DNA from: Anaerolineaceae bacterium
GTDB taxonomy: Bacteria > Chloroflexota > Anaerolineae > Anaerolineales > Anaerolineaceae
Length of the DNA stretch: 64,000 bases
Direction of reading: 5' to 3'
Assembly (NCBI GenBank): GCA_016841525.1
Contig: JAENYZ010000001.1
Location: 1-64,000 of the forward strand
Both the position numbers and the translations under genes were made by a program. Numbering within the stretch: the stretch's first letter is position 1; every line of letters begins with the position of its first letter. Below, piece after piece: positions 9,434 through 24,566 of the stretch. The notes below the pieces were generated by a model that had not been told where the DNA came from, made no database searches, and was given only the letters and a program-made list of their open reading frames with translations.

Positions 9434-12400
9434 ATGTCAATACGTCATCTAATCATTTTAAGTCAGTTAAATCCTCCGGCACCAAACGTCAGGATTCTCC
9501 ATCGGGACCGGATTGAAACGCGTTTGGATCAGGCTTTTAACTACCCATTGACAATCCTGCATGCGGGTACAGGCTATGGTAAAAGTACAGCAGTTATATC
9601 GTTCCTACAAACTCAAGAATCTCCTATTTATTGGTTTACAACCTCGGGTACCGATCGTGATCCAAAATTATTCCTGGCGAAATTGTTTACTGCCTTTAAC
9701 CAGCTTGATAAACCATTAGGAGATGAGGCCCTCCGAATTTTGGATATGCCTGATGCAACTTATCAGGAAGCTCTGATTGCCTTGCTCAATCAAATCTCAA
9801 GGAATATCAAATCGCATACACTTTTTATCCTCGATGATTTTCATCAAGTTAGCGATGTTGAAGAAATAATTGGGTTCATTGATTGGATGATTGAGCGCCT
9901 CCCCCCTGAACTACACATCATTATTTCTTCTCGCTATTATCCAAGCTTTCCGTCGATAAACAAATGGGTAATAAAAGGAAAAGTTCTGGAAATAGATAAA
10001 AGCGACTTAATGTTTACCGAGAAAGAGATCAGGCAGCTGTTCGAGGGTCTATACGGTATTGTTTTGCATGATGAAAGTGTTTCATTGCTGCAAAAAAAGA
10101 CAGAAGGGTGGGCAATTGGACTGCAAGTTGTGTGGAAAACACTGCAAAATCAGCCAAATATCAGCATCGCAAGAATTTTCGATGAAAGCCAACAGTCAAA
10201 AACCGCCTTATTTGAGTACCTTGCAGATGAAATCTTAAGTGGTTTGGACCCGAAAATTCAAAACTTCCTCATTCAAACCTCAATTCTTTCCAAACTCGAT
10301 AGTTCAACCTGTGACTTTCTTTTGAATATCGACAACAGCGATAAATTGCTCACTCAAATTCAGAATGCAGGTCTCTTTATTGAAGAATTAAGGCCCGGTT
10401 TATGGCGTTATCATGAATTATTCCGTGAATTCTTAAACAATCACCTTCAAAGAAGTGAGATTTCTGTAAAAGATTTGCACTTGAAAATTGCCAGTTATTT
10501 CCGTGCACATGAATATTGGGAAGAAGCCATTTTTCATTTACTGATGGCATCAGAATTTCGCCAAGTTAACCAAATCTTGGAAAATATCGGTGAAAAATTG
10601 ATCAATGATGGGCGTCACGAATCGATAAATTACTGGATTTGTGAAATTCCCGAATCAGTCAGAAAAGAATTTCCATACCTGGCGTTCCTACTGGGAGAAG
10701 TCAATCGTTATTTGGAAAAATTTGATGATGCTCTTGAATACTATCACATGGCAGAGCGACTTTATCGCCAAAACAATAATAAACCTGGAATATCGATGGC
10801 GCTTAAAGGACAGGCGCAGGTATTTTTAGATACGATCCGACCGATTAATGCTGATCAACTACTGCAAGATGCGCTGAAATTATTAGATCCAAAAGAGATG
10901 GGGGCTGAAGTATCAGATTTACTGGTACTTATTGCTGAGAATCAACTTAATTTAGGTTTTCCAGATCGTGCGCAAGCTTTTTTGGCGGAAGCAAAGCAAT
11001 TTCGATCAGAATTTGATAGAGAAACCGACTTGATACAGGCTCGGATTCTCCTCAGATCGGGCTGCTTGCAGGAGGGGATCGATTTGTTGAACGCACGTGA
11101 AGCAAATAATCCCAGGTTACCAATTTCACGTCCTCAAAGATTTCATCGGGAAAGTACACTATTACTATCGTTGTTTTATGCCATTATTGGTGAAATCGAT
11201 AAAGCTGAGCAATTTGCTAAACAGGGGATTGAGATCGGAAAAATTCTCCAATCAAAATTTGTCCAATCTGTTGGTTTTATGCGCTTGGGACATGCGATTT
11301 TGCTTCGATCGCAGCAGCCCTTTACACAAGATGGCTTTGAGCTTGCTATGGAGCACTTTCAAACTTCGATTGAGAATGTGGATGTTGTTCGCATTCATGT
11401 GGAACCATTGTGGGGTATGTGCCGTGCATTGGGTTATACCGGTCAAATTGAAAAAGCAGAAGATTTAGCACTCAAGTCACTGGCAATAGCCGAAAAAGCA
11501 GGCGATGAATGGATTGGCATCCTTATACGTCTGTCCCTCGGTGCAGGAGCGGTGCTTGGAGAAAAATTTGACGCGGCACAGGAATATTTAACAACAGCGG
11601 AGGTCACAGCACAAAAGGTAAAGGATCCTTTTACCTTATGTGTTGCAAGAATGTGGTTAGCGGTGAAAGCCTGGAAACAAGGTTACTCAAACACAGCATT
11701 CGGATATCTGGAAAAAATCCTTCCAATTCTCGAAAGTAAAAATTACGATTTCTTATTTGAACGTGAAACATTGTTGGGTTTGAAAGATCCTGAAATGATC
11801 TACCCCTTGTTACTGGCGGCACACGAGAATGGGATTGGAGGGAAGTATATCGAATCCTTGTTAAAGACAAGGAACCTCACCAAAAATTCATACCATCCAG
11901 GGTACACCATCTGGATTCGCACTCTTGGCGGATTCCGAGTTTGGCGTGGTGATCAAGTAATTGACCAACAATCATGGAAACGCGAGAAGGCGCGAGAGCT
12001 GCTTGAATTGCTGGTTCTAAATCGCGAAAGATGGCTCCACCGAGATCAGATAAATGCAATTTTATGGGCTGATACACCTGTGGAAAATGCGGCTAATTAT
12101 CTCAAGGTTGTCTTTAACTCTTTGAATCAGGTTCTAGAGCCCAATAGACCTCGAGGAGCTCAAACTTTCTTTGTGGAGAGACGACAGGAAAGATACAGAT
12201 TAAACCCAAAAGCAAGAATCATCATTGATACAGATCAATTTGTAGAAGCAATTAAAAGCGAGACACTTTCAGCCCTTGAATACGCCCTAAATCTTTACCA
12301 GGGAAAATATTTTGCAGATTGTTTTATCCAGGAATGGTGTGCGATTGAAGAACAATATTACCACCAGCAATATCTGCTTGCTTCAGAAAAATTAATTTCT

Positions 12401-12652
12401 ATTTTATTGGATCAAAAAGCACTTGATAAAGCACTGGATATTACATACCAGGTTTTAAATAAGGATAACCTGTGGGAACCTGCATACCGATCTCAGATGA
12501 AAATATTTCACGAAATGGGGGAATACGCAATGATCCACAAGGTCTTCAGGCAGTGTCAGGAAGTATTCAAACAGCAGTTGGACAGTTTGGTGTCACCATC
12601 GACATTGGCGCTCTACGAAAAAATCACTTCTGGGTTTGAAATAAGTCATTAA
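9434..12652 (+). CDS. MalT-like STAND ATPase with TPRs and C-terminal BTAD (SARP-like) output
   Basis: This 1072-residue protein is a large transcriptional regulator. The N-terminus carries a MalT-type NTPase: Walker A GTGYGKST near residue 48 and Walker B LFILDDFHQV near residue 133. A winged-helix region and a long TPR-like helical array (about residues 370-800) follow. The C-terminus is not a LuxR helix-turn-helix but a SARP-type output: an OmpR-like DNA-binding part (TLGGFRVWRGDQVI to RERWLHRDQINAILW, about residues 825-935) and a BTAD helical domain to the end. Such proteins couple ligand and ATP binding to activation. It lies just upstream of the 12772-24566 block and its direct repeats, and is probably the block's activator. 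Confidence 0.88.
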   Translation: MSIRHLIILSQLNPPAPNVRILHRDRIETRLDQAFNYPLTILHAGTGYGKSTAVISFLQTQESPIYWFTTSGTDRDPKLFLAKLFTAFNQLDKPLGDEALRILDMPDATYQEALIALLNQISRNIKSHTLFILDDFHQVSDVEEIIGFIDWMIERLPPELHIIISSRYYPSFPSINKWVIKGKVLEIDKSDLMFTEKEIRQLFEGLYGIVLHDESVSLLQKKTEGWAIGLQVVWKTLQNQPNISIARIFDESQQSKTALFEYLADEILSGLDPKIQNFLIQTSILSKLDSSTCDFLLNIDNSDKLLTQIQNAGLFIEELRPGLWRYHELFREFLNNHLQRSEISVKDLHLKIASYFRAHEYWEEAIFHLLMASEFRQVNQILENIGEKLINDGRHESINYWICEIPESVRKEFPYLAFLLGEVNRYLEKFDDALEYYHMAERLYRQNNNKPGISMALKGQAQVFLDTIRPINADQLLQDALKLLDPKEMGAEVSDLLVLIAENQLNLGFPDRAQAFLAEAKQFRSEFDRETDLIQARILLRSGCLQEGIDLLNAREANNPRLPISRPQRFHRESTLLLSLFYAIIGEIDKAEQFAKQGIEIGKILQSKFVQSVGFMRLGHAILLRSQQPFTQDGFELAMEHFQTSIENVDVVRIHVEPLWGMCRALGYTGQIEKAEDLALKSLAIAEKAGDEWIGILIRLSLGAGAVLGEKFDAAQEYLTTAEVTAQKVKDPFTLCVARMWLAVKAWKQGYSNTAFGYLEKILPILESKNYDFLFERETLLGLKDPEMIYPLLLAAHENGIGGKYIESLLKTRNLTKNSYHPGYTIWIRTLGGFRVWRGDQVIDQQSWKREKARELLELLVLNRERWLHRDQINAILWADTPVENAANYLKVVFNSLNQVLEPNRPRGAQTFFVERRQERYRLNPKARIIIDTDQFVEAIKSETLSALEYALNLYQGKYFADCFIQEWCAIEEQYYHQQYLLASEKLISILLDQKALDKALDITYQVLNKDNLWEPAYRSQMKIFHEMGEYAMIHKVFRQCQEVFKQQLDSLVSPSTLALYEKITSGFEISH

Positions 12653-12657
12653 ATTTC

Positions 12658-12705
12658 CATTTGTAACCCATTTGTAACGCATTTGTAATTTCCTATTGTT
12701 ATACT
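12658..12705 (+). promoter_or_regulatory. Three 11-bp-period direct repeats and -10 box: candidate SARP/BTAD operator
   Basis: CATTTGTAAC occurs at 12658-12667 and 12669-12678, and CATTTGTAAT at 12680-12689, giving an exact 11-bp period (one helical turn). TATACT follows at 12700-12705. The third repeat sits where a -35 box would be, and no sigma-70 -35 hexamer is present. SARP regulators are known to bind heptamer direct repeats with 11-bp spacing just upstream of the -10. The neighbouring gene encodes a BTAD/SARP-type output domain. The expected transcript start is about 60 bp before the SDR start codon. Confidence 0.65.
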
Positions 12706-12771
12706 GAATTTGTAATTGTTTAAATTTTGTTAACAATAGTATTTGTTCATGCAGAACCAAGGAGAGGAAAA

Positions 12772-13536
12772 ATGCGATTAAAGGATAAGGTTTGTCTGAT
12801 AACTGGTGGCGCGTCTGGTATAGGTAAGGCGACTGCGATTAAATTTGCTTCCGAAGGTGCAAAAGTGATCATTTGCGACGTGGACAAAACAGCCGGACAG
12901 GCATTTGTCGAAGATTTGGGCAATGATTCAGTATTTTATAAAATCAATGTTGTGGATCGGGATGAAGTCCAGGGTTGGATAGATGACGTTGTTAAAAAAT
13001 TCGGACGCATTGATGTGCTTGTCAATAATGCTGGCATTACAAGGGATGGGTTATTTGTAAAATATAAGAACGGCGAATTGGTCAGTCAAATGGACGAGAA
13101 AGATTTCGACCTTGTCATTGCCGTTAATCTCAAAGGTGTTTTCAATTGTACCCAGGCAGTCACCCCTAAGATGATCGAGCAGAGCGGCGGCGTTATTCTT
13201 AATGCCTCCTCAATCGTCGGGCTTTATGGAAATTTTGGCCAGACCAATTATGCTGCTACCAAATTCGGGGTGATCGGCATGACGAAAACCTGGTCACGAG
13301 AATTAGGCAAATTCAACATTAGGGTTAATGCCGTCTGTCCAGGTTTTATTCTGACCGAGATGGTCAAAAAGATGCCCGAAAAAATTCTTGAAGGACTGGC
13401 AGCCAAAACACCATTAGGGCGTATGGGTACCCCTGAAGATGTTGCAAATTTATATGCCTGGCTTGCAAGTGATGAAGCTGCGTATATTCACGGTGCTGCT
13501 ATCAGTATTGATGGTGGAATGGTCCTTGGCACCTGA
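12772..13536 (+). CDS. SDR family oxidoreductase, FabG-like 3-ketoacyl reductase
   Basis: The 254-residue product is a classical short-chain dehydrogenase. The cofactor motif TGGASGIG lies near residue 12, with VLVNNAGIT and the catalytic Asn-Ser-Tyr-Lys set in the middle (NASSIVGLYGNFGQTNYAATK). The C-terminus is IHGAAISIDGGMVLGT. Acidic Asp in VIICDVDKT after beta-strand 2 suggests NAD(H) preference. It likely interconverts 3-hydroxyacyl and 3-oxoacyl thioesters for the neighbouring KAS III-like enzyme and thiolase. The ATG at 12772 is chosen over an earlier in-frame start because AAGGAGAGG lies directly before it. First gene of the block after the direct repeats. Confidence 0.88.
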   Translation: MRLKDKVCLITGGASGIGKATAIKFASEGAKVIICDVDKTAGQAFVEDLGNDSVFYKINVVDRDEVQGWIDDVVKKFGRIDVLVNNAGITRDGLFVKYKNGELVSQMDEKDFDLVIAVNLKGVFNCTQAVTPKMIEQSGGVILNASSIVGLYGNFGQTNYAATKFGVIGMTKTWSRELGKFNIRVNAVCPGFILTEMVKKMPEKILEGLAAKTPLGRMGTPEDVANLYAWLASDEAAYIHGAAISIDGGMVLGT

Positions 13537-13585
13537 TATTTTGTAATAAGTAATTTGACAGAGTAAACAAAGGATTGAGGCATAT

Positions 13586-14593
13586 ATGGAACGACATGCA
13601 AATATTATTGGAACAGGGCGATATGTACCTGAAAATGAAATTTCAAATGAAAAATTTTCTGAGTGGATGGGTGCGATCAGCCCAAAATTAGCAGAGGTTG
13701 TTGGGAAATTTGAAGACAGTTCAAATATCAAGACTCGCTTTTATGCTAATGAAGATACGACGACTTCGGATCTGGCTGTAGAAGCTGCCAAAGATGCAAT
13801 GAAAGATGCGGGAATAACTGCTGATGACGTCGATTTGATCATCCTTGGAACGGATTCCCCGGATTATATTACTCCTGCTACATCTGTTGTTGTTCAGGAA
13901 AAATTAGGCGCGAAAAACGCCGGGACATTTGATGTCGGATGCGCCTGTGCAAGCTTTCCCACTGGTTTAGCACTGGCAGCGGGCTTGATTAAAACCAACC
14001 CTCACCTAAAGAATATTTTAGTCATCGGTGCTTACATGATGCATCGTTTTGCCGACTACAAACACGATGTTATTAGCTTTTTCTATGGCGACGGTGCAGG
14101 TGCAGCAGTTGTTGCTCCAGGTGATGAACCAGGCTTTATTTCTTCAACATTCTTTGCGGATGGCTCCTACTATAAACATTGGGGGATCTATGCGGGTGGT
14201 GCTGCTGAGCCAGCCACGGTCGAAAACGTCAAAAGTGGAAAGACCCAAGTCAAACTTGTGACAGCATTCCCTCCGGAAGTTAATAATGAAGGCTGGCCAA
14301 AACGCATTCGAGAAGTTGCCAGAAACGGCAATTTTGATATTCAAGATATCGATTTTGTAATTTTTACACAGGTTCGCCTGAACAGCATTAAATTGGTGAT
14401 GGAAGAAATTGGTTTGCCCCTGGAAAAGGCTCACTGGATCATGGACAAATGGGGTTACACCGGTTCGGCTTGTTTACCCATGGCTTTTGATGATGCTCGT
14501 AAACTTGGAAAGATTAAATCAGGGGACCTGGTTGTTTTCATAGGATCTGGTGTTGGTTATAACCAGGCTGGTGTCGCCTTCAGAATGCCATAA
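13586..14593 (+). CDS. Divergent KAS III-like (FabH/HMG-CoA synthase superfamily) enzyme lacking His and Asn
   Basis: This 335-residue protein has the FabH thiolase fold, with Cys121 (GCACASF) aligning to the acyl-accepting nucleophile in FDISAACAGF of FabH. Two catalytic residues are changed: HQAN of FabH aligns to TQVR (Thr261 for His), and GNTSAAS aligns to GYTGSAC (Tyr291 for Asn). The C-terminal GSGVGYNQAGVAF glycine region is kept. Without His/Asn, decarboxylative condensation as in FabH is unlikely; acyl transfer, hydrolysis, or a non-decarboxylative Claisen or retro-Claisen reaction are options. It is encoded with a thiolase and a DUF35 protein, as archaeal HMG-CoA synthases can be. 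AGGATTGAGG precedes the ATG. Confidence 0.8.
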   Translation: MERHANIIGTGRYVPENEISNEKFSEWMGAISPKLAEVVGKFEDSSNIKTRFYANEDTTTSDLAVEAAKDAMKDAGITADDVDLIILGTDSPDYITPATSVVVQEKLGAKNAGTFDVGCACASFPTGLALAAGLIKTNPHLKNILVIGAYMMHRFADYKHDVISFFYGDGAGAAVVAPGDEPGFISSTFFADGSYYKHWGIYAGGAAEPATVENVKSGKTQVKLVTAFPPEVNNEGWPKRIREVARNGNFDIQDIDFVIFTQVRLNSIKLVMEEIGLPLEKAHWIMDKWGYTGSACLPMAFDDARKLGKIKSGDLVVFIGSGVGYNQAGVAFRMP

Positions 14594-14613
14594 GAGGGCA
14601 GAGAGAGAATGAT

Positions 14614-15930
14614 ATGGAAATAAAACAAAAATTTGGTGAGAAATACATCACAGCACAAGAAGCAGTTTCGAAAATAAAATCAAACCAAACGATCGGGGTT
14701 GGTATTGCGGGTGCTGAGCCCATTGGTTTATTGACTGCAATGGCTGATGCTGCCAAAAATGTTGAAGATGTACATTTTTGGACCTGTTTGCCCATGCGTG
14801 CATACGATATATTTGAAAAAGCTGAAATGGCTGGTCACATTTTCAATGAAAACTGGTTCTACAGCTACACAGATCGTCAAGTCCACAACGAGGGCAGGGT
14901 ATCCTACATACCCAACAACCTGCATCGTGCTTCCACTGATAAGCTTTATTCCACCAATAATCACCTTGATGTCTTTTGGGGAACAGCAACACCGCCAAAC
15001 AAAGACGGCTATATGTCTCTCTCAATCGGTCTCATTGTACAAAAAGACTTATTGGAATCAGCGGATCTTAAGATCCTGGAAATTAATGAAAACTTGCCAT
15101 TTACATTTGGCGACACCTTAGTACATATATCAGAAGTTGATTATGTCGTTGAAAATCACGTTCCTCTCGTAGAGCTGCCGTCCTCACCTCCAAGCGAAAT
15201 TGAACAACAAATTGGCGGTTACATTGCAGAGCTGATCGAAGATGGATCAACCATTCAATTAGGTATCGGCGGAATACCCAACGCGATTACAGCATTCATC
15301 ATGGAACGAAAAGATTTGGGCATCCATACTGAAATGGTCATCGATGGGATGGTTGATCTCATCAATGCTGGTGTGGTCACCAACCGAAAGAAGACATTAC
15401 ATCCGGGAAAAACAATTGGCGCATTTGCACTGGGAACAAAAAAATTATACGACTACCTCGATAATAACAAAGATGTTGAAATGTACCGTGGGCATTACAC
15501 CAATGATCCTTATATTATCGCTAAGAACAATAAGATGATCAGCGTCAATACGGCACTACAGGTGGATGTGATGGGGCAGGTATGTTCGCAAAGCATTGGC
15601 ACCCGGCAGTTCAGCGGGACTGGTGGTCAGCTTGACACCCACAGAGGTGCGCAAATGTCACTGGGGGGCAGAGGCATCATTGCCCTGAGGTCGACAGCAA
15701 AAAATGGGAGCATTTCTACAATTGTCCCGACTTTAGCACCAGGTGCTGGCGTGACAGTGCCAAGCCAGGATGTTGACACCATCATCACGGAATACGGCGT
15801 GGCAGAATTACGAGGTCGGTGCATTAAAGATCGTATGGAGGCATTAATCCGTATTGCCCATCCAAATTTCCGTGAATGGATTCGCGATGAAGCACATCGA
15901 TTGGGAATTGTCCCAAAAATGCAGTTTTAA
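14614..15930 (+). CDS. Acetyl-CoA hydrolase/transferase family CoA-transferase (4-hydroxybutyrate-type)
   Basis: The 438-residue product belongs to the family of 4-hydroxybutyrate, butyrate and acetate CoA-transferases. Features are GVGIAGAEPIGLL at the start, QLGIGGIPNAITAF in the middle, the segment IHTEMVIDGMVDLINAG carrying the likely catalytic Glu that forms the glutamyl-CoA intermediate, and the C-terminal TEYGVAELRGRC. It would move CoA from acetyl-CoA or another donor to a carboxylic acid, activating the imported substrate. It begins 20 bp after the KAS III-like gene. The exact acid cannot be predicted. Confidence 0.88.
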   Translation: MEIKQKFGEKYITAQEAVSKIKSNQTIGVGIAGAEPIGLLTAMADAAKNVEDVHFWTCLPMRAYDIFEKAEMAGHIFNENWFYSYTDRQVHNEGRVSYIPNNLHRASTDKLYSTNNHLDVFWGTATPPNKDGYMSLSIGLIVQKDLLESADLKILEINENLPFTFGDTLVHISEVDYVVENHVPLVELPSSPPSEIEQQIGGYIAELIEDGSTIQLGIGGIPNAITAFIMERKDLGIHTEMVIDGMVDLINAGVVTNRKKTLHPGKTIGAFALGTKKLYDYLDNNKDVEMYRGHYTNDPYIIAKNNKMISVNTALQVDVMGQVCSQSIGTRQFSGTGGQLDTHRGAQMSLGGRGIIALRSTAKNGSISTIVPTLAPGAGVTVPSQDVDTIITEYGVAELRGRCIKDRMEALIRIAHPNFREWIRDEAHRLGIVPKMQF

Positions 15931-15944
15931 TTTTGGAGGTTGAT

Positions 15945-16259
15945 ATGAGCATTATCACAGGCAAATGGGTACAGGAAAAAGGGCAAGCCTTTGAAGGATT
16001 GTGGTTTGAATTCGAGTCAGACGGCACCTTCGAAGCCGCATATGATCCCATGGTTATTGAATCAGGCGGGACTTATCAGATTGATGGGAACCATATTGAT
16101 ATGGACCAAACTGCACATACCCTTGGCATGATTGGCTTCTTTAGAGGTTTATTTGAAATAAAGAATGAAAAATTATTCATGGCTTTATCTTCTGCCCCTG
16201 GTGGTGATCGCCCTGAAGATTTATCTGATGCCCGTGTCTATATTAAAGAAGAGAATTAA
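15945..16259 (+). CDS. Small beta-rich (lipocalin-like) protein of unknown function
   Basis: I do not recognise a named family for this 104-residue protein. Its pattern (ITGKWVQEKG, LWFEFESDGTFEAAY, GGTYQIDGNHIDMD, LFEIKNEKLFMAL) alternates short beta-strands and turns, as in small lipocalin-like sheets that report fitness of a ligand pocket. The ATG at 15945 is preferred over an upstream TTG because GGAGG lies 5-9 bp before it. It sits between the CoA-transferase and thiolase genes with gaps of 14 and 9 bp, so it is part of the operon and may bind an intermediate or stabilise an enzyme complex. Confidence 0.65.
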   Translation: MSIITGKWVQEKGQAFEGLWFEFESDGTFEAAYDPMVIESGGTYQIDGNHIDMDQTAHTLGMIGFFRGLFEIKNEKLFMALSSAPGGDRPEDLSDARVYIKEEN

Positions 16260-16268
16260 GGAATATTA

Positions 16269-17534
16269 ATGACTGAAAAAAAGTGGTCAAGAAACGTCGC
16301 ACTCGTAGGTACTGGGATGAGCAAATTCGGGGCATTTTCCGATAAAACATCTCGGGACCTCTTCGTTGAAGCATTTTGCGACTTAAAGAATTATGTGGAT
16401 AAAGGCTTTGATCCCAAAAGAATAGAAGCACTTTATTTGGGCAATTTCAGCAGTGATCAATTTGAGAAGCAAGCACATTTAGCGCCAATCCTTGCAAGTT
16501 GGATTGGGATATCGCCTGTGCCAACCATGCGCATTGAGGACGCCTGCGCCAGCGGGGGCGTAGCACTACGTCAAGCAGCTCTAGCAATTGCTTCAGGTGA
16601 ATATGATGTTGTTCTGGTGGGCGGCGTGGAGAAAATGACAGACCTTCATATTGCACAGGTTACAGAAGCCTTGGGGACCGCTGCGGATTCCCAGTTTGAA
16701 ATTCCAGCAGGGTTTACTTTCCCAGGATTTTATGCGGCGATGGCTACCGCTTACATGGCAAAATATGATGCACCAAAAGAAGCCTTTTACCATGTCAGTA
16801 TTAAAAATCACAAGAATGGTGCATTGAACGATAATGCCCAATATCAACTAACTATTCGCCAGATTATGGAGAGTAAAAAAGAACGGGCTGCGATAAAAGG
16901 CCGACCAGTCCCTGAGTGGGAAGATGAAATGGAATTTCTCAGTGACCCAAAAGGGAATCCAAATATTGCCTGGCCGATGGCTTTGTTTGATTGTTCACCA
17001 GTTTCTGACGGCGCTGCAGTAGCGCTGTTGGTTGCTGAAGATTTAGCACAAGAATTTACAGACAAACCGCTGTACCTTATTGGGAGCGGTCAGGCAAGCG
17101 ATGGCGCATTACCTGATCGTGAGACCCTTGCATCCATTCCTGCGGCAAAATTGGCAGGCGCGCAAGCTTATCGTATGGCTGGCATTAATCCAGAAGATAT
17201 TGATCTGGCTGAAGTACATGATTGTTTTACAATCGCTGAAATTATGGCTTCAGAGGACCTGGGTTTCTTCCCACACGGCGAGGGTTGGAAAGCTGCAATG
17301 CAAGGTAAAACCGCTAGAAATGGCGATCGTCCCATAAATACATCCGGTGGTTTGAAGGCAAAAGGACACCCGGTTGGTGCATCAGGAGTGGGGCAGGTGG
17401 TTGAAATTTGGAAACAATTACATGGTATTGCTGGAGAAAGGCAGATCGAAGGAGAGCCAAGGATTGGATTAACCCACAATGTTGGAGGATCTGGCCAAAC
17501 ATGTGTTGTGAATATTTTTGAGCGGAGGGATTAA
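16269..17534 (+). CDS. Thiolase family protein (SCP2/archaeal type)
   Basis: The 421-residue product is a thiolase of the SCP2-like branch. The nucleophile is in EDACASGG near residue 94; EVHDCFTIAE, GHPVGASGVGQ with the catalytic His, and the C-terminal GGSGQTCVVNIF with the second Cys are all present. It should make or split 3-oxoacyl-CoA. Thiolases of this branch usually work with a DUF35 partner, which is encoded immediately downstream. The retained Cys argues against the Ltp2-type aldolases of steroid degradation, which are related but use other residues. Confidence 0.88.
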   Translation: MTEKKWSRNVALVGTGMSKFGAFSDKTSRDLFVEAFCDLKNYVDKGFDPKRIEALYLGNFSSDQFEKQAHLAPILASWIGISPVPTMRIEDACASGGVALRQAALAIASGEYDVVLVGGVEKMTDLHIAQVTEALGTAADSQFEIPAGFTFPGFYAAMATAYMAKYDAPKEAFYHVSIKNHKNGALNDNAQYQLTIRQIMESKKERAAIKGRPVPEWEDEMEFLSDPKGNPNIAWPMALFDCSPVSDGAAVALLVAEDLAQEFTDKPLYLIGSGQASDGALPDRETLASIPAAKLAGAQAYRMAGINPEDIDLAEVHDCFTIAEIMASEDLGFFPHGEGWKAAMQGKTARNGDRPINTSGGLKAKGHPVGASGVGQVVEIWKQLHGIAGERQIEGEPRIGLTHNVGGSGQTCVVNIFERRD

Positions 17535-17535
17535 A

Positions 17536-17952
17536 ATGAGTGATTATACAATGAACAGTAAAGATTTTTACAAAGCTTTAGCTGACCAGAAACTCATCGG
17601 TTCACACTGCAAATTTTGCGATGCCTATGCTATCCCACAAAAATCGATTTGTCCTAAATGTCACCAACAAGAAAGCGAAATCATTGAATTTTCAGGTGAT
17701 GGCAAACTTGTTGCCTATACTGTGATCAGCGTACCCCCGGTGATGATGGCTGAGGCGGGGTATGATGCAAAAAATCCTTATTGTGTTGGGATTGTTGAAC
17801 TTGTAGAAGGCCCAAGAATATCAGCACAAATTCTGGATGTTGATATGCACCATCCGGAAAACATTAAGATTGGAACACAATTGAGGATGACTACAATCAC
17901 TCGCGGTGAAGATGAGAAAAAAGTCACTTATTTAGCCTTTAGACCTATTTGA
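17536..17952 (+). CDS. DUF35 zinc-ribbon/OB-fold protein, thiolase partner
   Basis: This protein of 138 residues has the DUF35 layout: an N-terminal helix, a zinc ribbon with CKFC and CPKC, and an OB-fold (GKLVAYTVISVPPVM, then YCVGIVELVEGPRI). In archaea such proteins bridge acetoacetyl-CoA thiolase and HMG-CoA synthase and provide a shared CoA-pantetheine path; in actinobacteria they pair with thiolase-like aldolases. The ATG at 17536 begins one base after the thiolase stop codon, with GGAGG upstream inside the thiolase gene. Translational coupling with the thiolase is likely. Confidence 0.88.
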   Translation: MSDYTMNSKDFYKALADQKLIGSHCKFCDAYAIPQKSICPKCHQQESEIIEFSGDGKLVAYTVISVPPVMMAEAGYDAKNPYCVGIVELVEGPRISAQILDVDMHHPENIKIGTQLRMTTITRGEDEKKVTYLAFRPI

Positions 17953-17969
17953 AACGAAGATAAAGTATA

Positions 17970-18764
17970 ATGCCATACATTCACATCAAGGATACCAATA
18001 TCTATTACGAAATTTCAGGACCAGAAAATGCCCCGGTTTTGGTTTTGTCCAATGGCATCATGATGAGCACAGCAAGTTGGGCGTTTCAAAATTCAGTCCT
18101 CAATCAGCAGCTGAGGGTTTTGTTATATGATTGCAGGGGCATGGGAAAATCCGATCATCCTGCTGGTCCTTATTCTATGGAACTGCATGCTGATGACCTT
18201 GCAGCGTTGTTGAAATCTCTTGATATCTCTACGGCACATATCGCTGGAATATCCTATGGTGCTGAAATTAGTATGGCTTTTGCAATTAGATATCCTGAAC
18301 TGACAAAGTCTCTCATTGTAATAGATGGTGTCAGTGAAATTCATCCGCTTTTAAGAGCACAAACATATCCCTGGTTAATTGCTGCTGAAAGAAATGACCC
18401 AAAATTACTGTTAGAAACTTCATATCACATGAATTTCTCAGAGGAATGGATAAAAACAAATAAGATTTTTATTGACAGTGCTGTTGACCGATTTGCGCAA
18501 TTGGATTTGAGGGCTTTTGCTGAACTGATGGCGGCTTTTTATCAAGTAAATCTAACCAGGGATCTTTCAAAAATATCATCGCCAACACTCGTCATTGTGG
18601 GGGAGAAAGATATTATTAAAGGACGAGAGTATGCTGAAATAATTGCGCGCGAAATTCCAGGCAGTGAATTTGCCCTTGTCCCAGGCGCTGGGCATGCGCT
18701 TTCACTGGAAAAACCAGCTTTGCTAAATACCTTGATGCTGGGTTTTGTGATAAAAAATCGATAA
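17970..18764 (+). CDS. Alpha/beta hydrolase
   Basis: The 264-residue protein is an alpha/beta-hydrolase fold enzyme resembling 3-oxoadipate enol-lactonases and small esterases. The nucleophile elbow is GISYGAE with Ser near residue 94, the acid is probably in IVGEKDIIKG, and the His is in GAGHALSLEKP. The oxyanion region reads LSNGIMMST instead of the usual HG motif. It could hydrolyse a lactone, ester or thioester in the pathway of the surrounding block. It follows the DUF35 gene by 17 bp and lacks a clear ribosome binding site. Confidence 0.8.
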   Translation: MPYIHIKDTNIYYEISGPENAPVLVLSNGIMMSTASWAFQNSVLNQQLRVLLYDCRGMGKSDHPAGPYSMELHADDLAALLKSLDISTAHIAGISYGAEISMAFAIRYPELTKSLIVIDGVSEIHPLLRAQTYPWLIAAERNDPKLLLETSYHMNFSEEWIKTNKIFIDSAVDRFAQLDLRAFAELMAAFYQVNLTRDLSKISSPTLVIVGEKDIIKGREYAEIIAREIPGSEFALVPGAGHALSLEKPALLNTLMLGFVIKNR

Positions 18765-18853
18765 GCAACCATGAAGGAGGTATTTCTATCAGAGAGATAA
18801 TCTTATTCAATATCACAACCACAATTTTCTAAACATTTAGAAGGAGTAATAGA

Positions 18854-20284
18854 ATGAAAAAGTTTAAATTGATTATTGTTACTATGATGGTGATTATTCC
18901 ATTACTGGTAACATCCTGTGTCCAGCAGGTCACCGAAGTTCCTGAAACTGAAGAACCTGTTGTCGAAGAAACTGAAGAAGTTGTAGAGGAACCAACAGAA
19001 GTAGTCGCTGAAGAAACCGAAGAAGAGGTTGTTGAGGAAGAAACCGAAGAATTAGGTCCAGTTCTCAAAATTGGGCAAATCGGAATGATGTCCGGTTCAA
19101 TGGCTCTTTATGGTCTGCAGCAGCAGCGCGGTTTTGAGATGGGTCTCAAATATATGTCTGGCGGCGAAACAGATGACCAGGGACGCTATATCATAGCAAA
19201 TCGTCCCGTGGAAGTTATCGTAAAAGACGATGAAGGTGATCCTGAAAAGGCTGTTGCTTTAGCACTCGAACTCATCGAAAAAGACGGCGTCGAATTAATC
19301 CAGGGTCCTGTATCTTCTGCAAGCGCGATTGCGTTGACGAATGTTGCTCTTGAGAATGAGATCATCTTGATGATTGATCCCGCAGCTTCTTATTTTATGA
19401 CGGGTTTGTATTTCAATCCCTACGTCTTCCGAACATCACGCACCAGCTTTGATGACACACTCATCATTGCAAAGTATTTAGTTGAGAATGTCGGTCCTAG
19501 CTTTGCGCACATTGGTATTGACAACGCTTTTGGACAGGGCTCTGGCGCAGCGCTCAAGTATTCTGTTGAGCAATTTGGCGGCGAACTCGTTGCCGATATT
19601 TATGCACCTTTCGAAACAACGGACTTCACCCCCTACATCCAGCAAGCAATGGATTCAGGTGCTGAGAACCTTTTCCTTACATGGGCGGGTACTGGTTACA
19701 TCACGCTTTTCCAGGCTCTTTCTGATATGGGCGCTCTTGAAACGATGACAGTCGGAACTGGCTTTGGCGATAATGCCTCCTTCACAGCGGTTTTTGGCGA
19801 AGATGTCGTAGGCCAGGTTGGTTTGAATGTTTATCATTACACTGTGCCTGAGAATGAAGTCAACGATTGGCTGGTTGAGAATCACTTCGAAGCTTATAAA
19901 GACGAAGCTGATGCTGCTATCAATGCCTATCCAGATCTCTTCACTGCCGGCGGCATGGCTTCAGCTATTGCCTTAGCCACGGCTCTTGAAGCAACAGGCG
20001 GCGACACCAGCGGTGATGCCATGATTCCCGCACTTGAGGGTTTGATCTTTGAAGGACCAAAGGGAACCTATCACATTCGCCCCGAAGATCATGTCTGTGA
20101 ACAGCCAATGAACATCTTACGCCTGGTCAATCTTGATCCAGACCTTGACGATGACGGCATTAATGAATATGAGTTCTTTGAAACTGTTTACGTATCTGAA
20201 TACGACGAATTGGGTGTCCCCTGCACCCTGGCCGGCGACTACGCAGAGCGATGCGGTGATCTGCCAACAGTTCCAGTTGAGTAA
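18854..20284 (+). CDS. LIV-type ABC transporter substrate-binding lipoprotein
   Basis: This 476-residue protein is a periplasmic-binding-protein type I receptor (LivJ/LivK and amide/urea-binding family). A signal peptide ends in the lipobox LLVTSC (Cys22). A Glu/Val/Thr-rich acidic tether covers about residues 28-68, then the binding domain starts at LKIGQIGMMSGSMALYG and continues through VIVKDDEGDPEKAVALALEL and QGPVSSASAIALTN. It would capture an amino acid, amide or aromatic/organic acid outside the cell for the permeases encoded downstream. AGAAGGAG precedes the ATG. A strong hairpin follows the stop codon. Confidence 0.9.
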   Translation: MKKFKLIIVTMMVIIPLLVTSCVQQVTEVPETEEPVVEETEEVVEEPTEVVAEETEEEVVEEETEELGPVLKIGQIGMMSGSMALYGLQQQRGFEMGLKYMSGGETDDQGRYIIANRPVEVIVKDDEGDPEKAVALALELIEKDGVELIQGPVSSASAIALTNVALENEIILMIDPAASYFMTGLYFNPYVFRTSRTSFDDTLIIAKYLVENVGPSFAHIGIDNAFGQGSGAALKYSVEQFGGELVADIYAPFETTDFTPYIQQAMDSGAENLFLTWAGTGYITLFQALSDMGALETMTVGTGFGDNASFTAVFGEDVVGQVGLNVYHYTVPENEVNDWLVENHFEAYKDEADAAINAYPDLFTAGGMASAIALATALEATGGDTSGDAMIPALEGLIFEGPKGTYHIRPEDHVCEQPMNILRLVNLDPDLDDDGINEYEFFETVYVSEYDELGVPCTLAGDYAERCGDLPTVPVE

Positions 20285-20302
20285 TAAATAGCATTAAAAC
20301 GC

Positions 20303-20329
20303 ATGAGGAGAGGCTGAGCCTCTCCTCAT
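20303..20329 (+). terminator. Strong hairpin after binding-protein gene (attenuator or mRNA stabiliser)
   Basis: ATGAGGAGAGGC (20303-20314) pairs perfectly with GCCTCTCCTCAT (20318-20329), a 12-bp stem with a 3-base loop. No T run follows, so full termination is unlikely. It lies between the binding-protein gene and the LivG-type ATPase gene, where it would protect the upstream mRNA or reduce downstream transcription. Confidence 0.65.
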
Positions 20330-20434
20330 AGATATCATCTGATTGAATATAAAATTAATCATTTTATAATTTAGATTTAATTATGTTAATATGGAATCAT
20401 TCATTTTATTTTTATCCTATTAAGGAAATTATTT

Positions 20435-21205
20435 ATGACTCAGGAAACTATTCTTGAAGCAAGAAATTTGTCCAAAGCTTTTGGCGGTTTAGTCGCTGTT
20501 GATAATGTTAACATTCAGATCCGCAAAGAAACCATGCATGCGATTATTGGGCCAAATGGGGCAGGGAAGACAACCCTTTTTAATTTATTGAGCGGTGTTA
20601 TGCCCGTCACCCAGGGTAGGGTTCTATTCAAAGGTGAGGACATCACGAGCTTACCACCGCATAAGAGAGCTCATCTTGGCATTGGGCGCTCTTACCAAAT
20701 TACAAATATTTTCCCCAATCTGAGTGTTTTAGAAAACATCAGGCTTGCTGCCCAGGCAAAAGGAAAAGATAATTTCAAGTTATTTTCTAAAGCAGATGAC
20801 TTTCAGCAATACATTGATAAATCCGTTGAAGTAATCGACACGGTTGGGTTATCCGGAAGAGAATTTTTCCTGGCAAGGGATTTACCACATGGAGAAAAGC
20901 GTAAATTGGAACTGGGAATCATGCTTGCTTGTGACCCCGAGCTCCTGCTTTTTGATGAGCCAACCGCTGGCATGTCTTCCGAGCAGGTACCTGAATTAAT
21001 CAATATTATCAGAAAAGTTGTCCAGCAAAAATCAAGGACGGCTATCCTGGTGGAACATCGTATGGATATGGTTATGTCTATTTCAGATGTCATCACTGTT
21101 ATGAACCAGGGGCGTGTATTAGCTGAAGGTAGCCCACATGAAATCGCCAAAAATGAACAGGTTCAAATCGCATATCTTGGCGATTTGTATGGAGAGCTTA
21201 CATGA
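20435..21205 (+). CDS. livG: LIV-type ABC transporter ATP-binding protein (LivG)
   Basis: The 256-residue protein is an ABC ATPase of the LivG type: Walker A GPNGAGKTTL near residue 37, the Q-loop followed by the LivG-typical IGRSYQITNIFPNLSVLEN, the signature LPHGEKRKLELGI (a divergent form of LSGGQ), and Walker B LLLFDEPTAGMS. It powers import with LivF. AAGGAAA lies upstream of the ATG. Its stop overlaps the livF start by four bases (ATGA), indicating tight coupling. Confidence 0.92.
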   Translation: MTQETILEARNLSKAFGGLVAVDNVNIQIRKETMHAIIGPNGAGKTTLFNLLSGVMPVTQGRVLFKGEDITSLPPHKRAHLGIGRSYQITNIFPNLSVLENIRLAAQAKGKDNFKLFSKADDFQQYIDKSVEVIDTVGLSGREFFLARDLPHGEKRKLELGIMLACDPELLLFDEPTAGMSSEQVPELINIIRKVVQQKSRTAILVEHRMDMVMSISDVITVMNQGRVLAEGSPHEIAKNEQVQIAYLGDLYGELT

Positions 21206-21963
21206 ATAATCAAAACACAGATGACAATATTCTAATTGTTGATAACATTCATACCTTTATTGGTCAATTCCACATTCTTGAAGGCGTCTCGGTGAAGGTC
21301 CCAAGGGGTTCAATCACTGTCTTATTGGGAAGAAATGGTGCCGGTAAAACAACAACTTTGAAATCAATATTAGGTCTGACGCCGCCGCAAGAAGGCAAAG
21401 TAATCTTTGATGGCATGGAAATCCAGGGAAAGCGTGCGTTCAATATTGCCTCGTTGGGCATTGGTTATGTACCTGAAAACCGCGCAATTTTTCGCGCACT
21501 TTCCGTCATGGAGAATCTAAAATTGGCGGAAAGGAAAAAGGGAGACTTTGCTCGAAATGAAGAATTTATCTTCAACCTTTTCCCGGACTTGAAACGCCTT
21601 TATAAGCTTCCTGGAAATCACCTTTCTGGCGGTCAGCAGCAAATGCTGGCTGTTGCACGAGCACTTGTTCCGGACAACAAATTACTGTTGATTGATGAAC
21701 CAAGCGAAGGGTTAGCACCGATATTGATCCAGCAAATGATGGAGGCGATCCGATCATTGAGCGAAAAGACGACCATTCTCCTCGTCGAACAAAATTTCTT
21801 GATGGCAAGCCAGTTAGCACAACGTTTCACAATCATTGATGATGGTAAAAGCGTTGAAAATGGATTGATGAAAGACCTGACAAACAACGAAGAAATGATC
21901 CACCAATACCTGGGTGCATCCATCAAAACTCGAAAAGAATTGGAGCGACAGCATGAAAACTAA
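21202..21963 (+). CDS. livF: LIV-type ABC transporter ATP-binding protein (LivF)
   Basis: The 253-residue product is the second ABC ATPase of the importer. It has Walker A GRNGAGKTTTLK, the LivF-typical segment GIGYVPENRAIFRALSVMENL, signature LSGGQQQMLAVARAL and Walker B LLLIDEPSEGLAP. It forms a heterodimer with LivG. The ATG overlaps the livG stop, and the gene's own end overlaps the permease start at 21953. Confidence 0.92.
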   Translation: MNNQNTDDNILIVDNIHTFIGQFHILEGVSVKVPRGSITVLLGRNGAGKTTTLKSILGLTPPQEGKVIFDGMEIQGKRAFNIASLGIGYVPENRAIFRALSVMENLKLAERKKGDFARNEEFIFNLFPDLKRLYKLPGNHLSGGQQQMLAVARALVPDNKLLLIDEPSEGLAPILIQQMMEAIRSLSEKTTILLVEQNFLMASQLAQRFTIIDDGKSVENGLMKDLTNNEEMIHQYLGASIKTRKELERQHEN

Positions 21964-23446
21964 GAAAAACAAAGCAATTACGATTGCCATATGGGTTGTG
22001 ATTAGTATCGTCGTTGTTGCAGGGCTTTATCTATATGCTGGTAAAGAACCCTTTATTAGGACAACATTATCAGGGTTAACGCTCGGTTCTTTATTCTTTA
22101 TGGTTGCAGCCGGCTTAACCCTCATTTTTGGGCTGATGGATGTGCTGAATTTTGCTCACGGTACAATGTTCATGTTGGGGGCATATATGGGCTGGCAGCT
22201 TTATACTAACCCTACCTTCATATTTGGCTTGATGCCTTTTATCCTGGCTTTCTCGACGGGAATAATGATGACATCAGCCATTAAGCCCTACCTGATACGG
22301 TGGAAATTGCCAGTCAAATGGATTGAAATATTACCCAGGATTGGATATGCATTGGCGCTCATTGCTGCGTTCATTGGTTTTGCTGGCATCGATATTTTGG
22401 AATTGGCTGACACAGCGATGGTAGCTGCTTCAGTCGCAACAGCAAACAACCCCCTGGCTGAAATCAGTCCCCAGTTACCATTCCCACTCTTCTGGTATCG
22501 TCCGATATTATTGTTTTTGTCTGGTTTTTTCATCGCTTTTGCTTCTTCAAAACCAGGGGTCAAAACAGAATTTGCACTGAAAGATAATCTTATCAAAAAG
22601 CTTTTGGTGCCAGTAGGCTTATTTGTTTTGACAATCATCGCAATCATCGTTCGTGAATCTGCACCAGAAGCCATTTTGCTCATGAATGGGAATTGGCGGT
22701 TTCTGATCTCCATGCTTGTTGCCGTTGCATTTGGTTTTCTATTTGGAGCTGTTATTGAGATTGCCTTCATCCGGCCGCTTTACGAACGTGCATTTTTTAT
22801 AGTGTTGATGACGCTTGGACTCAGTTTTGCAATAACGGAATTAGTTCAACTATTATGGGATCCACTTGCGTACCAGATGGTAAGACCGCCGCTTTTTGCC
22901 CAACCCGGGAAAGCGGCTAATCTACTTGAATGGCTTAGAAATGGTAATTCAACGATTGACATTTACGGTGTTACCTTTCCAACATATCGCTTGTTTGTCA
23001 TCCTTTTAGGTTTGATTATGTTCACATTTATTACCCTTTTGATGACCAAAACTCGACTCGGCATGATCATTCGCGCAGGTGTACAGGACCCGCAAATGGT
23101 TGAAGCGCTTGGGATTAATGTGAAAAGGGTCTTCACTTTTGTCTTTGCCCTGGGAGTAGCAATGGCGGCTCTCGGTGGGATCGGCGCTGGGCCCTTTCTT
23201 CCCATTCAGCCGTTAATGGGTGATCAATTTCAAATGCAAGGATTTATCACCGTAGTGATCGGCGGCATGGGCAGTTATGTGGGTGCTTTTGTAGGCGCAA
23301 TAATTTTAGGGATGGGACGCGCTTTTGGAGATTATTTTGCGCTTAAATTATCCCTCTCACCAGCAATTGCTGAGGCATCAACCGTCATTATCATGGTCAT
23401 CGTCCTTCTCATCCGACCGCAAGGTCTTTTTGGGAAGAAGGAGTAA
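21953..23446 (+). CDS. livH: LIV-type ABC transporter permease (LivH) with large insertion
   Basis: The product is a branched-chain-type inner-membrane permease. The family core is plain: TLSGLTLGSLFFMVAAGLTL, GLMDVLNFAHGTMFMLGAY, then GAVIEIAFIRPLYERAFFIV and the C-terminal FALGVAMAALGGIGAGPFLP and VIGGMGSYVGAFVGAII. At 497 residues it is much longer than the usual 290-310: roughly residues 95-260 are an insertion with about four extra hydrophobic segments between the LNFAHG helix and the IRPLYER loop. The ATG at 21953 is chosen because TTGGAGCG precedes it and the gene overlaps livF by 11 bp; an earlier in-frame start would lie inside livF. Confidence 0.88.
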   Translation: MKTKKNKAITIAIWVVISIVVVAGLYLYAGKEPFIRTTLSGLTLGSLFFMVAAGLTLIFGLMDVLNFAHGTMFMLGAYMGWQLYTNPTFIFGLMPFILAFSTGIMMTSAIKPYLIRWKLPVKWIEILPRIGYALALIAAFIGFAGIDILELADTAMVAASVATANNPLAEISPQLPFPLFWYRPILLFLSGFFIAFASSKPGVKTEFALKDNLIKKLLVPVGLFVLTIIAIIVRESAPEAILLMNGNWRFLISMLVAVAFGFLFGAVIEIAFIRPLYERAFFIVLMTLGLSFAITELVQLLWDPLAYQMVRPPLFAQPGKAANLLEWLRNGNSTIDIYGVTFPTYRLFVILLGLIMFTFITLLMTKTRLGMIIRAGVQDPQMVEALGINVKRVFTFVFALGVAMAALGGIGAGPFLPIQPLMGDQFQMQGFITVVIGGMGSYVGAFVGAIILGMGRAFGDYFALKLSLSPAIAEASTVIIMVIVLLIRPQGLFGKKE

Positions 23447-23453
23447 GAAGAAT

Positions 23454-24566
23454 ATGACAGAAAATATCAATCCAAAAAAGAATCGGTTCCTAACGAATTT
23501 TCAAGACGAACGTATTATTCTGGTTTTCCTGGTTTTGTTAATTGCCTTTCCCTTTGTGATGAATCTTATCACCGGGACCGGTTTGAACGAAGGCGTTACA
23601 AAATTTTGGCAAGGTCAGTTTATTGTCTTTTTTATTATGGCTGTCTTTGCAATGAGTTATGATCTCTTGATGGGGTATGGCGGCATTCTCTCCTTTGGAC
23701 ACGCTGCAAGTTTTGGTGGGGGGGCATACACATTTGCGCTATTGATGAAGCATTGGGCGCCAAATTTTATGAGTAATTATCGCATCATGGTGGGGAGCAT
23801 CAATATCACGGAAGCCATTGTGCTAATTTTTGTATTTCTGGCAGTCCTTCTGATCTCAATTTTGATTGGCTTGCTCTTTAGCGCAACATCTGTCCGCTTA
23901 AAAGGCGCTTATTTTGCCATGCTCACCCTTGCTTTGGGATCAGCCTTGTATATCCTGGTCAAGGCGACGGACTTCCATCAATGGACTGGGGCAGACGAAG
24001 GCTTACACGGCGTGCCTGTACCTTTATGGTTAAATCCAACACAAAATCGTCTGACGATATATTTTATTTCGCTCATTTTTATGTTTGTGTGTTACATGGT
24101 AATGAAACGCATGGTCAATTCTCCGACAGGGCGAGTGATTATTGCAAACCGGGAAAATGAAGACCGCATGCGTATGATTGGTTACAACCCGGTTGTTTAC
24201 CGAACGATCGCATTTGTTTCCTCTTCAATATTTGCTGGGCTTGCTGGTGCTTTGTATTCTATTTGGAACACAAGCGCATCGCCGACAATGATATCCGCAG
24301 TTATGACAATAAATGCCCTCATCATGACCATTTTAGGTGGAATAGGCACATTGATAGGTCCTATCCTCGGGGCAGCTATTATGCAGACAATCAGCCAATT
24401 TTTCTACACATGGTTTGGCGCAAGGTGGCCTTTAGTGTTCGGCATACTGTTCATCCTTATCGTTATGTTCCTGCCTTATGGGATTGTCGGCACATGGCGT
24501 CTGAAACGTCTTGATGTGAAGAATGGATGGAAGAGAATTACAGGGATGCTCTCAAGAAAAGAGTGA
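23454..24566 (+). CDS. livM: LIV-type ABC transporter permease (LivM)
   Basis: This 370-residue permease pairs with LivH. Motifs are AMSYDLLMGYGGILSFGHAA, VRLKGAYFAMLTLALGSALY, TDEG-like GADEGLHGVPVPL, and the C-terminal ALIMTILGGIGTLIGPILGA. About nine transmembrane helices are expected. The ATG at 23454 follows the livH stop by 7 bp and is preceded by AAGAAGGAG; the longer in-frame extension would run back inside livH. Last gene of the importer. Confidence 0.9.
   Translation: MTENINPKKNRFLTNFQDERIILVFLVLLIAFPFVMNLITGTGLNEGVTKFWQGQFIVFFIMAVFAMSYDLLMGYGGILSFGHAASFGGGAYTFALLMKHWAPNFMSNYRIMVGSINITEAIVLIFVFLAVLLISILIGLLFSATSVRLKGAYFAMLTLALGSALYILVKATDFHQWTGADEGLHGVPVPLWLNPTQNRLTIYFISLIFMFVCYMVMKRMVNSPTGRVIIANRENEDRMRMIGYNPVVYRTIAFVSSSIFAGLAGALYSIWNTSASPTMISAVMTINALIMTILGGIGTLIGPILGAAIMQTISQFFYTWFGARWPLVFGILFILIVMFLPYGIVGTWRLKRLDVKNGWKRITGMLSRKE

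Follow-up and report, generated by a model that had tools for sequence, protein, structure and literature searches.

In PMC10663231, regulators of the Streptomyces antibiotic regulatory protein (SARP) family are defined by an output part in which an OmpR-type DNA-binding domain (DBD) is contiguous with a BTAD (PF00486 and PF03704), and PMC10936776 describes SARP sites as direct repeats with a period of 11 or 22 bp whose 3' repeat lies 8 bp from the -10 element. SARPs have been described in a 2024 review as restricted to actinobacteria (PMC10972967). Here we analyse a locus of an Anaerolineaceae bacterium of the phylum Chloroflexota (assembly GCA_016841525.1), contained in a window of 64,000 nt (contig JAENYZ010000001.1, positions 1 to 64,000; coordinates refer to this window and features lie on its forward strand unless stated otherwise), in which the gene for a 1072-aa regulator of the STAND (signal transduction ATPases with numerous domains) class (9434-12652) is followed by tandem repeats containing TGTAA, by a -10 element and by a putative operon for uptake and coenzyme A (CoA)-thioester metabolism. 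The site with its geometry and conservation, its connection to a regulon, and the SARP fold modelled for the regulator lead us to consider it very probable, at roughly 0.87, that this STAND-gated SARP-type activator binds tandem TGTAACY repeats and thereby switches on the operon.

Between the stop of the regulator gene (12652) and the start of a short-chain dehydrogenase/reductase (SDR) gene (12772), the window holds three copies of CATTTGTAAY (CATTTGTAAC at 12658-12667, CATTTGTAAC at 12669-12678 and CATTTGTAAT at 12680-12689) with a period of exactly 11, and a TATACT (12700-12705) lies ten bases 3' of the third copy; these elements, including the lack of a -35 hexamer, are as the preliminary description had reported them. 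CATTTGTAAY occurs three times in the 64 kb, each time at 12658-12689, as compared to 0.57 expected occurrences, and three were reached in 2 of 100 shuffled versions of the window; in the 3.2-Mb genome from which the window comes, a search for CATTTGTAACNCATTTGTAA with up to 3 mismatches gave two overlapping exact matches at the locus and one match elsewhere, with 3 mismatches. A sigma-70 scan of 12500-12900 found its sole match on the other strand (12559-12530) and none at the repeats or TATACT, hence no -35; the extended -10 (TGT-TATACT) lies at 12697-12705. An Rfam scan of the same 12500-12900 gave nothing at E 1. Reduced to heptamers, the window carries direct repeat 1, TGTAACC (12662-12668), direct repeat 2, TGTAACG (12673-12679), and the promoter-proximal direct repeat 3, TGTAATT (12684-12690). 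A fourth look-alike, AATTTGTAAT (12707-12716), was not counted, because its phase differs from that of the repeats and the relatives whose sequences were inspected do not show it.

The preliminary description had proposed that the repeats be sought in related genomes with the same gene pair, and had named their absence there as a refutation. This check was run in two ways, and the repeats proved to be conserved, such that the refutation did not materialise. A profile search over one genome per species yielded more regulator loci than were used; the locus counts that follow rest on the best 80, which are titled Anaerolineaceae, Anaerolineales, Thermoflexia, Ardenticatenales, Promineifilum, Chloroflexus and other Chloroflexi, and 76 of which had enough downstream sequence (L140, L143, L175 and L180, with <150 nt, were dropped). 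In the 500 nt that follow the regulator, a site was present in 52 of these 76 loci at ≤2 mismatches and in 57 at ≤3, as compared to 0/76 at ≤4 mismatches for the reverse complement of the downstream stretches and 0/1520 at ≤3 mismatches (12 at 4) for Markov sequences. The 500 nt upstream of the regulator, which served both as a control and as the place where autoregulation through such a site was sought, gave 0/72 at ≤3 mismatches and one stretch at 4. Among loci that do not repeat a locus of the 61 genomes described below, 43 of 65 had the site at ≤2 mismatches, and when loci were clustered by regulator identity (70%), a site occurred in one or more members of 31 of the 46 clusters. The geometry is kept as well: period 11 was found in 50/76 loci, and no other period between 8 and 24 was found in more than 10 (the 10 belonging to period 22, which triplets also produce), TGTAAC is separated from the -10 by 10 nt in 52/76 loci (next best spacing, 10 loci), and a third in-phase upstream copy is present in 13 of the 57 sites.

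Alignment of 53 of the 57 sites (L127, L128, L137 and L194 were left out, having been taken as near-duplicates of other loci, as were loci too short around the site) defines a conserved core, TGTAACY-N4-TGTAAC-N10-TAnnnT with an extended -10, in which the spacer letters are mostly free. Per base, the two hexamers carry a mean of 1.86 and 1.38 bit and the positions outside the motif a mean of 0.04-0.10 bit, and the T and G of the extended -10 are kept in 47 and 49 sites, respectively, TG having been part of the search pattern. Because position 7, which lay outside that pattern, is a pyrimidine in 53/53 sites and the flanks carry little information, we take the operator unit to consist of a heptamer, TGTAACY, and a spacer of 4 nt. 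The repeat unit given in the preliminary description thus needs to be redrawn; its copies are real, but their CATT part does not belong to the core conserved across relatives.

In the second approach, 61 genomes were searched with the 33-base pattern TGTAACN5TGTAAYN7TGNTANNNT. A full-length regulator orthologue is present in 19 of them (E at most 2.1e-185; hand count from the table), and the SDR (E at most 1e-80) in 22, including all 19 with the orthologue. In each of these 19 genomes, the locus of the SDR or of the regulator carries a site at ≤2 mismatches, and in 16 it carries one at ≤1; the locus sites of G009, G018 and G043 have 2 mismatches and count by position. Among 23 SDR places, two (G046 and G056) lie at a contig end, and 16 of the remaining 21 show repeats, as read by eye, within 250 nt upstream. 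The five others comprise those of G041, G042, G043 and G055, in which the site follows the regulator and is separated by further sequence from the SDR or from the end of the contig; the fifth is a second SDR of G049, with 52% identity. Eight genomes of the same genus that have the regulator-SDR pair show three repeat copies. At ≤1 mismatch the pattern occurs at 21 places in the 61 genomes, and 19 of these belong to the locus of the SDR or regulator or lie on the operon contig; the other two are in G039. Of the 42 genomes that lack the orthologue, 2 have a site at this threshold, namely G024 (before the SDR) and G039 (twice, at other genes). The two G039 sites were taken as chance, one lying inside an open reading frame (ORF) and one near genes unlike those of the operon in the window.

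The regulator itself combines a MalT-like nucleoside triphosphatase (NTPase) part (approximately residues 1-420) with a tetratricopeptide repeat (TPR)-type sensor and a C-terminal OmpR-type winged helix plus BTAD. AAA_22 (27.6 bits, cut-off 27), TPR_12 and BTAD (PF03704, 43.8 bits, cut-off 22.1; residues 943-1064, 12260-12625) exceed their Pfam cut-offs, TPR_MalT and Trans_reg_C (22.3, cut-off 26.2) stay below theirs, and sequence profiles match residues 6-416 to MalT (PDB 8bob, E 4e-64) and residues 833-1066 to AfsR in polymerase complexes (PDB 8k60, E 5.5e-12). Structure prediction for residues 818-1072, based on an alignment of 64 sequences, gave a model with a pLDDT of 96 and a pTM of 0.90. 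The six best Foldseek matches of this model are AfsR and EmbR chains, and VIA-align gave Z scores of 19.3 for AfsR (rmsd 3.2, 233 aligned residues) and 18.0 for EmbR (rmsd 3.1, 240 aligned), followed by Z 10.7 over 130 residues for a TPR-like part. Since the model matches AfsR and EmbR over both domains, the C-terminal 255 residues are predicted to form a complete SARP-type domain at the end of a MalT-type STAND protein. The OmpR-type DBD (approximately residues 826-935, 11909-12238) is contiguous with the BTAD, as in the SARP family; Trans_reg_C is under its cut-off, but the model covers both domains. The preliminary statement that the gene upstream of the repeats encodes DNA-binding plus BTAD output therefore holds. 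In the recognition helix of the model, VENAANYLKVVFNSLNQVL (residues 883-901, 12080-12136), K891 is invariant both in 17 aligned orthologues (of 19; G043 and G049 were left out) and in a larger alignment of 64 sequences, in which it is numbered K74 (63 of the 80 loci plus the window; the L135 and L149 rows, with one internal stop each, were dropped).

Related output domains were also observed elsewhere. The genome that contains the window has a further BTAD regulator family (L037-L043), i.e., seven ORFs that match residues 819-1067 (DBD-BTAD), six of which lie in open frames of 1181-1224 aa, whereas the seventh has 255 aa. Contig C717 of G041 (L202:963-1841) encodes a stand-alone 293-aa OmpR-DBD/BTAD protein with the similar helix RDFRVALNAL, a small-SARP-like form of the output domain without a STAND part; this gene lies 64 nt before a one-mismatch TGCAAC/TGTAAC site, and the SDR of an SDR/KAS III (3-ketoacyl-acyl carrier protein synthase III) operon is located approximately 5 kb further on.

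Compared to described systems, the locus is closest to AfsR, the large SARP of Streptomyces coelicolor (PDB 8hvr, 8k60 and 8jke), with which it shares the OmpR-type DBD plus BTAD fold, direct repeats of 11-bp period, a poor or absent -35, and NTPase and TPR parts. By contrast, the SARP domain occupies the N-terminus of AfsR but the C-terminus of our regulator (approximately residues 826-1064 of 1072), which has a MalT-like NTPase; the AfsR operator is given as CGTT(T/C)ATCGNN in PMC10972967, as opposed to TGTAACY; and base-reading residues, phylum and target differ as well. The 3' repeat of SARP promoters lies 8 bp from the -10 in the text of PMC10936776 cited above, as compared to 9 nt after TGTAACY here, and the extended -10 is an added feature relative to known SARP promoters. 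PimR and other SARP-LAL proteins likewise combine SARP output and a LAL-type NTPase in one chain, and the three heptamers with 4-nt spacers reported for PimR (PMC5930380) resemble the window site, but PimR has an N-terminal SARP domain, an operator that does not overlap the -35 and an antifungal pathway as its target. MalT, a STAND/LAL activator (PDB 8bob), shares the NTPase part, a TPR-type sensor and a C-terminal output. Its output is a LuxR-type helix-turn-helix (HTH), however, whereas the C-terminus of our regulator has no such Pfam match at E 0.01 and carries OmpR/BTAD domains instead; the NCBIfam MalT score is 239 against a cut-off of 537. EmbR of Mycobacterium tuberculosis (PDB 2fez and 2ff4) has the OmpR DBD plus BTAD but differs in its C-terminal FHA domain and its lack of a STAND part. 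The regulator is thus SARP-type by output domain and operator; it is not a large SARP or SARP-LAL in the strict sense, because its domain order and phylum differ (the SARP domain is not N-terminal and the origin not actinobacterial), and it is not a MalT, because it has no LuxR HTH.

The putative operon (12772-24566, delimited by gene spacing) starts with the SDR, a FabG-like 3-oxoacyl reductase (12772-13536), followed by a KAS III-like synthase (13586-14593), a member of the acetyl-CoA hydrolase/CoA-transferase family (14614-15930), a thiolase of the thiolase-domain/lipid-transfer type (16269-17534), a ChsH2-type (DUF35) zinc ribbon plus OB fold (17518-17952), an alpha/beta hydrolase (17970-18764), a periplasmic binding protein (Peripla_BP_6; 18854-20284) and an ATP-binding cassette (ABC) transporter of the branched-chain/urea type (20435-24566) with ATPases at 20435-21205 and 21202-21963 and permeases at 21914-23446 and 23325-24566, the former permease being named by its position. 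Between the CoA-transferase and thiolase genes lies a 108-aa ORF (15933-16259) with no Pfam match and an NCBIfam TIGR03066 score far under the cut-off; it is kept at the same place in several related operons. ORFs around 66 of the 80 loci (those over 9 kb; L127, L128 and L137 were left out) were clustered at 35% identity, which may split families, and clusters were named by resemblance to genes identified elsewhere. Clusters were found for the regulator in 64 loci, KAS in 35, SDR in 34, AMP ligase in 30, hydrolases in 26 and 23, the binding protein in 24, ATPases in 22 and 17, DUF35 in 22, thiolase in 22, CoA-transferase in 21 and MaoC in 9, besides other small groups. Because SDR, KAS III, CoA-transferase or AMP ligase, thiolase plus DUF35, hydrolases, MaoC and an ABC importer occur together, the gene families point to organic-acid uptake and CoA-thioester metabolism, for degradation or elongation alike. 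For the pathway we weighed an HMG-CoA-synthase/DUF35 complex and reverse beta-oxidation; the families found do not settle the direction.

The first gene of the window's type after the site may be the SDR, KAS III (e.g., L152, L153, L155, L159, L188 and L189) or the CoA-transferase (L193), and in L156 and L186, KAS III comes first and the SDR has a site of its own. Second sites precede the ABC binding-protein gene at L161:17845, L182:20636 and L189:20656, and the importer therefore looks like a separate regulon unit in some species. We also re-examined 17 genomes in which no site was found near the regulator or the contig ended early. In 9 of these, a site at ≤2 mismatches precedes a regulon-type gene, namely the SDR (G061, G062, G063, G064, G065 and G068), KAS plus AMP ligase (G067 and G069), or KAS (26% identity) plus a hydrolase (G077). 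G063 and G064 are contig-break cases, in which the regulator end does adjoin the site; in G061 and G062 (contigs of equal size) 52 nt separate the site from the SDR that follows it, with the regulator approximately 67 and 74 kb away; and in G065, which has the same assembly positions as G023, the site precedes the SDR on a contig other than that of the regulator. The site thus goes with the regulon, and not solely with the regulator.

We propose that the MalT-like NTPase and TPR part would sense an inducer, for which the acid taken up or the CoA thioester formed from it is the probable candidate, and that in the active state the C-terminal SARP-type domains (OmpR winged helix plus BTAD) would sit side by side on the tandem TGTAACY repeats, the 11-bp period placing the bound domains on one face of the DNA. 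With the promoter-proximal repeat ten bases from the extended -10, bound protein would replace the absent -35, as AfsR does, and binding would turn on the SDR/KAS III/CoA-transferase/thiolase/DUF35/hydrolase operon as well as the branched-chain-type ABC importer. Within this proposal we infer binding (from linkage, co-occurrence and fold), activation, the ligand and the single transcript; conservation and fold support the earlier suggestion that the regulator acts on the neighbouring block from these repeats.

A number of observations weigh against this proposal. At 19 of the 76 loci, no site at ≤3 mismatches was found within 500 nt, and in the window itself, position 7 of the second repeat is G rather than a pyrimidine. 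At ≤2 mismatches, the pattern finds 52 places in the 61 genomes where the reversed control finds 34, and one or more such places occur in 13 of the 42 genomes that lack the orthologue; because of this high background, two-mismatch sites count only by position. The background is also high in the re-examined set (17 places, as compared to 12 for the reversed control), such that position again carries the argument; there, G066, G072, G073, G075 and G076 have no site at ≤2 mismatches anywhere, and the sites found in G070, G071 and G074 precede no known regulon gene. In AfsR, T88 and R92 read bases while R87, S91, R94 and K95 hold phosphates (PMC10936776); in an alignment counted by hand, the former correspond to V892 and S896 and the latter to K891, N895, N898 and Q899 of our regulator. 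Specificity is therefore not transferable from AfsR, and a different residue read-out would fit the different heptamer. In G024 (L198), a genome that is 88% complete, a perfect site lies before the SDR operon and a full-length regulator orthologue was not found.

G024 might also be explained if another OmpR-type protein, either a two-component response regulator or a BTAD paralogue, bound the repeats and the STAND protein were a mere neighbour. As a matter of general knowledge, OmpR-class response regulators too use 11-bp direct repeats. The seven further DBD-BTAD ORFs of the own genome supply candidates for such a binder, and PhoP and AfsR are described as having a common site (PMC10972967). 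We nevertheless consider this explanation unlikely, as the 19 of 21 places at ≤1 mismatch are tied to the operon or regulator, 40 of the 42 genomes without the regulator have no such site (most of them also lack the SDR), and the site is found just downstream of the regulator even in loci where the SDR was not found. Among the clusters present in at least 4 of the 66 loci, moreover, no second regulator was recognised, as judged from printed representatives; together with the ties between low-mismatch sites and the locus, this singles out the STAND protein as the leading candidate for the binder. A regulator that binds the site but represses, or merely tunes, a promoter self-sufficient through its extended -10 would account for the largely kept TG, and extended -10 promoters are generally known to fire without a -35. 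The repeats, however, lie upstream of the -10 at a fixed 10-nt spacing, which is the place of a SARP site and not over the start, and the relatives with data are activators (PMC10936776 and PMC5930380), making repression or tuning less likely still. Finally, a chance tandem duplication with a coincidental link to the regulator could be suspected from the shortness of the pattern and the 2 of 100 shuffles mentioned above, but conservation of core and spacing in distant genomes, with free flanks, refutes it, and we give it next to no weight.

Activation by the STAND-gated SARP-type regulator is thus the explanation that we favour. A literature search (top matches for broad queries, with most subscription papers outside its scope) found no SARP-type operator in Chloroflexota, and RegPrecise 3.0 has a Chloroflexi collection, the main text of which names neither SARP nor AfsR. 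In the present data, many Chloroflexota loci share a SARP-like output domain, the repeat period and the distance to the -10 but have another repeat sequence, which allows the recognition codes of AfsR and of this Chloroflexota regulator family to be compared. The 33-base pattern, combined with gene position, points to regulon members in uncultured Anaerolineae, and Bellilinea caldifistulae GOMI-1 (L133) is a named strain suited to work on the pathway and on what induces it. SARP wiring is known from Streptomyces antibiotic regulators, whereas the target here, in a different phylum, looks like primary metabolism. We regard it as an evenly balanced possibility that SARP-type activation, with side-by-side OmpR/BTAD domains replacing the -35 beside an extended -10, is an older mechanism rather than an actinobacterial antibiotic device, and that it may have been kept in Anaerolineae to control acid uptake and CoA-thioester metabolism in a pathway-specific manner, through a MalT-type sensor of an acyl ligand.

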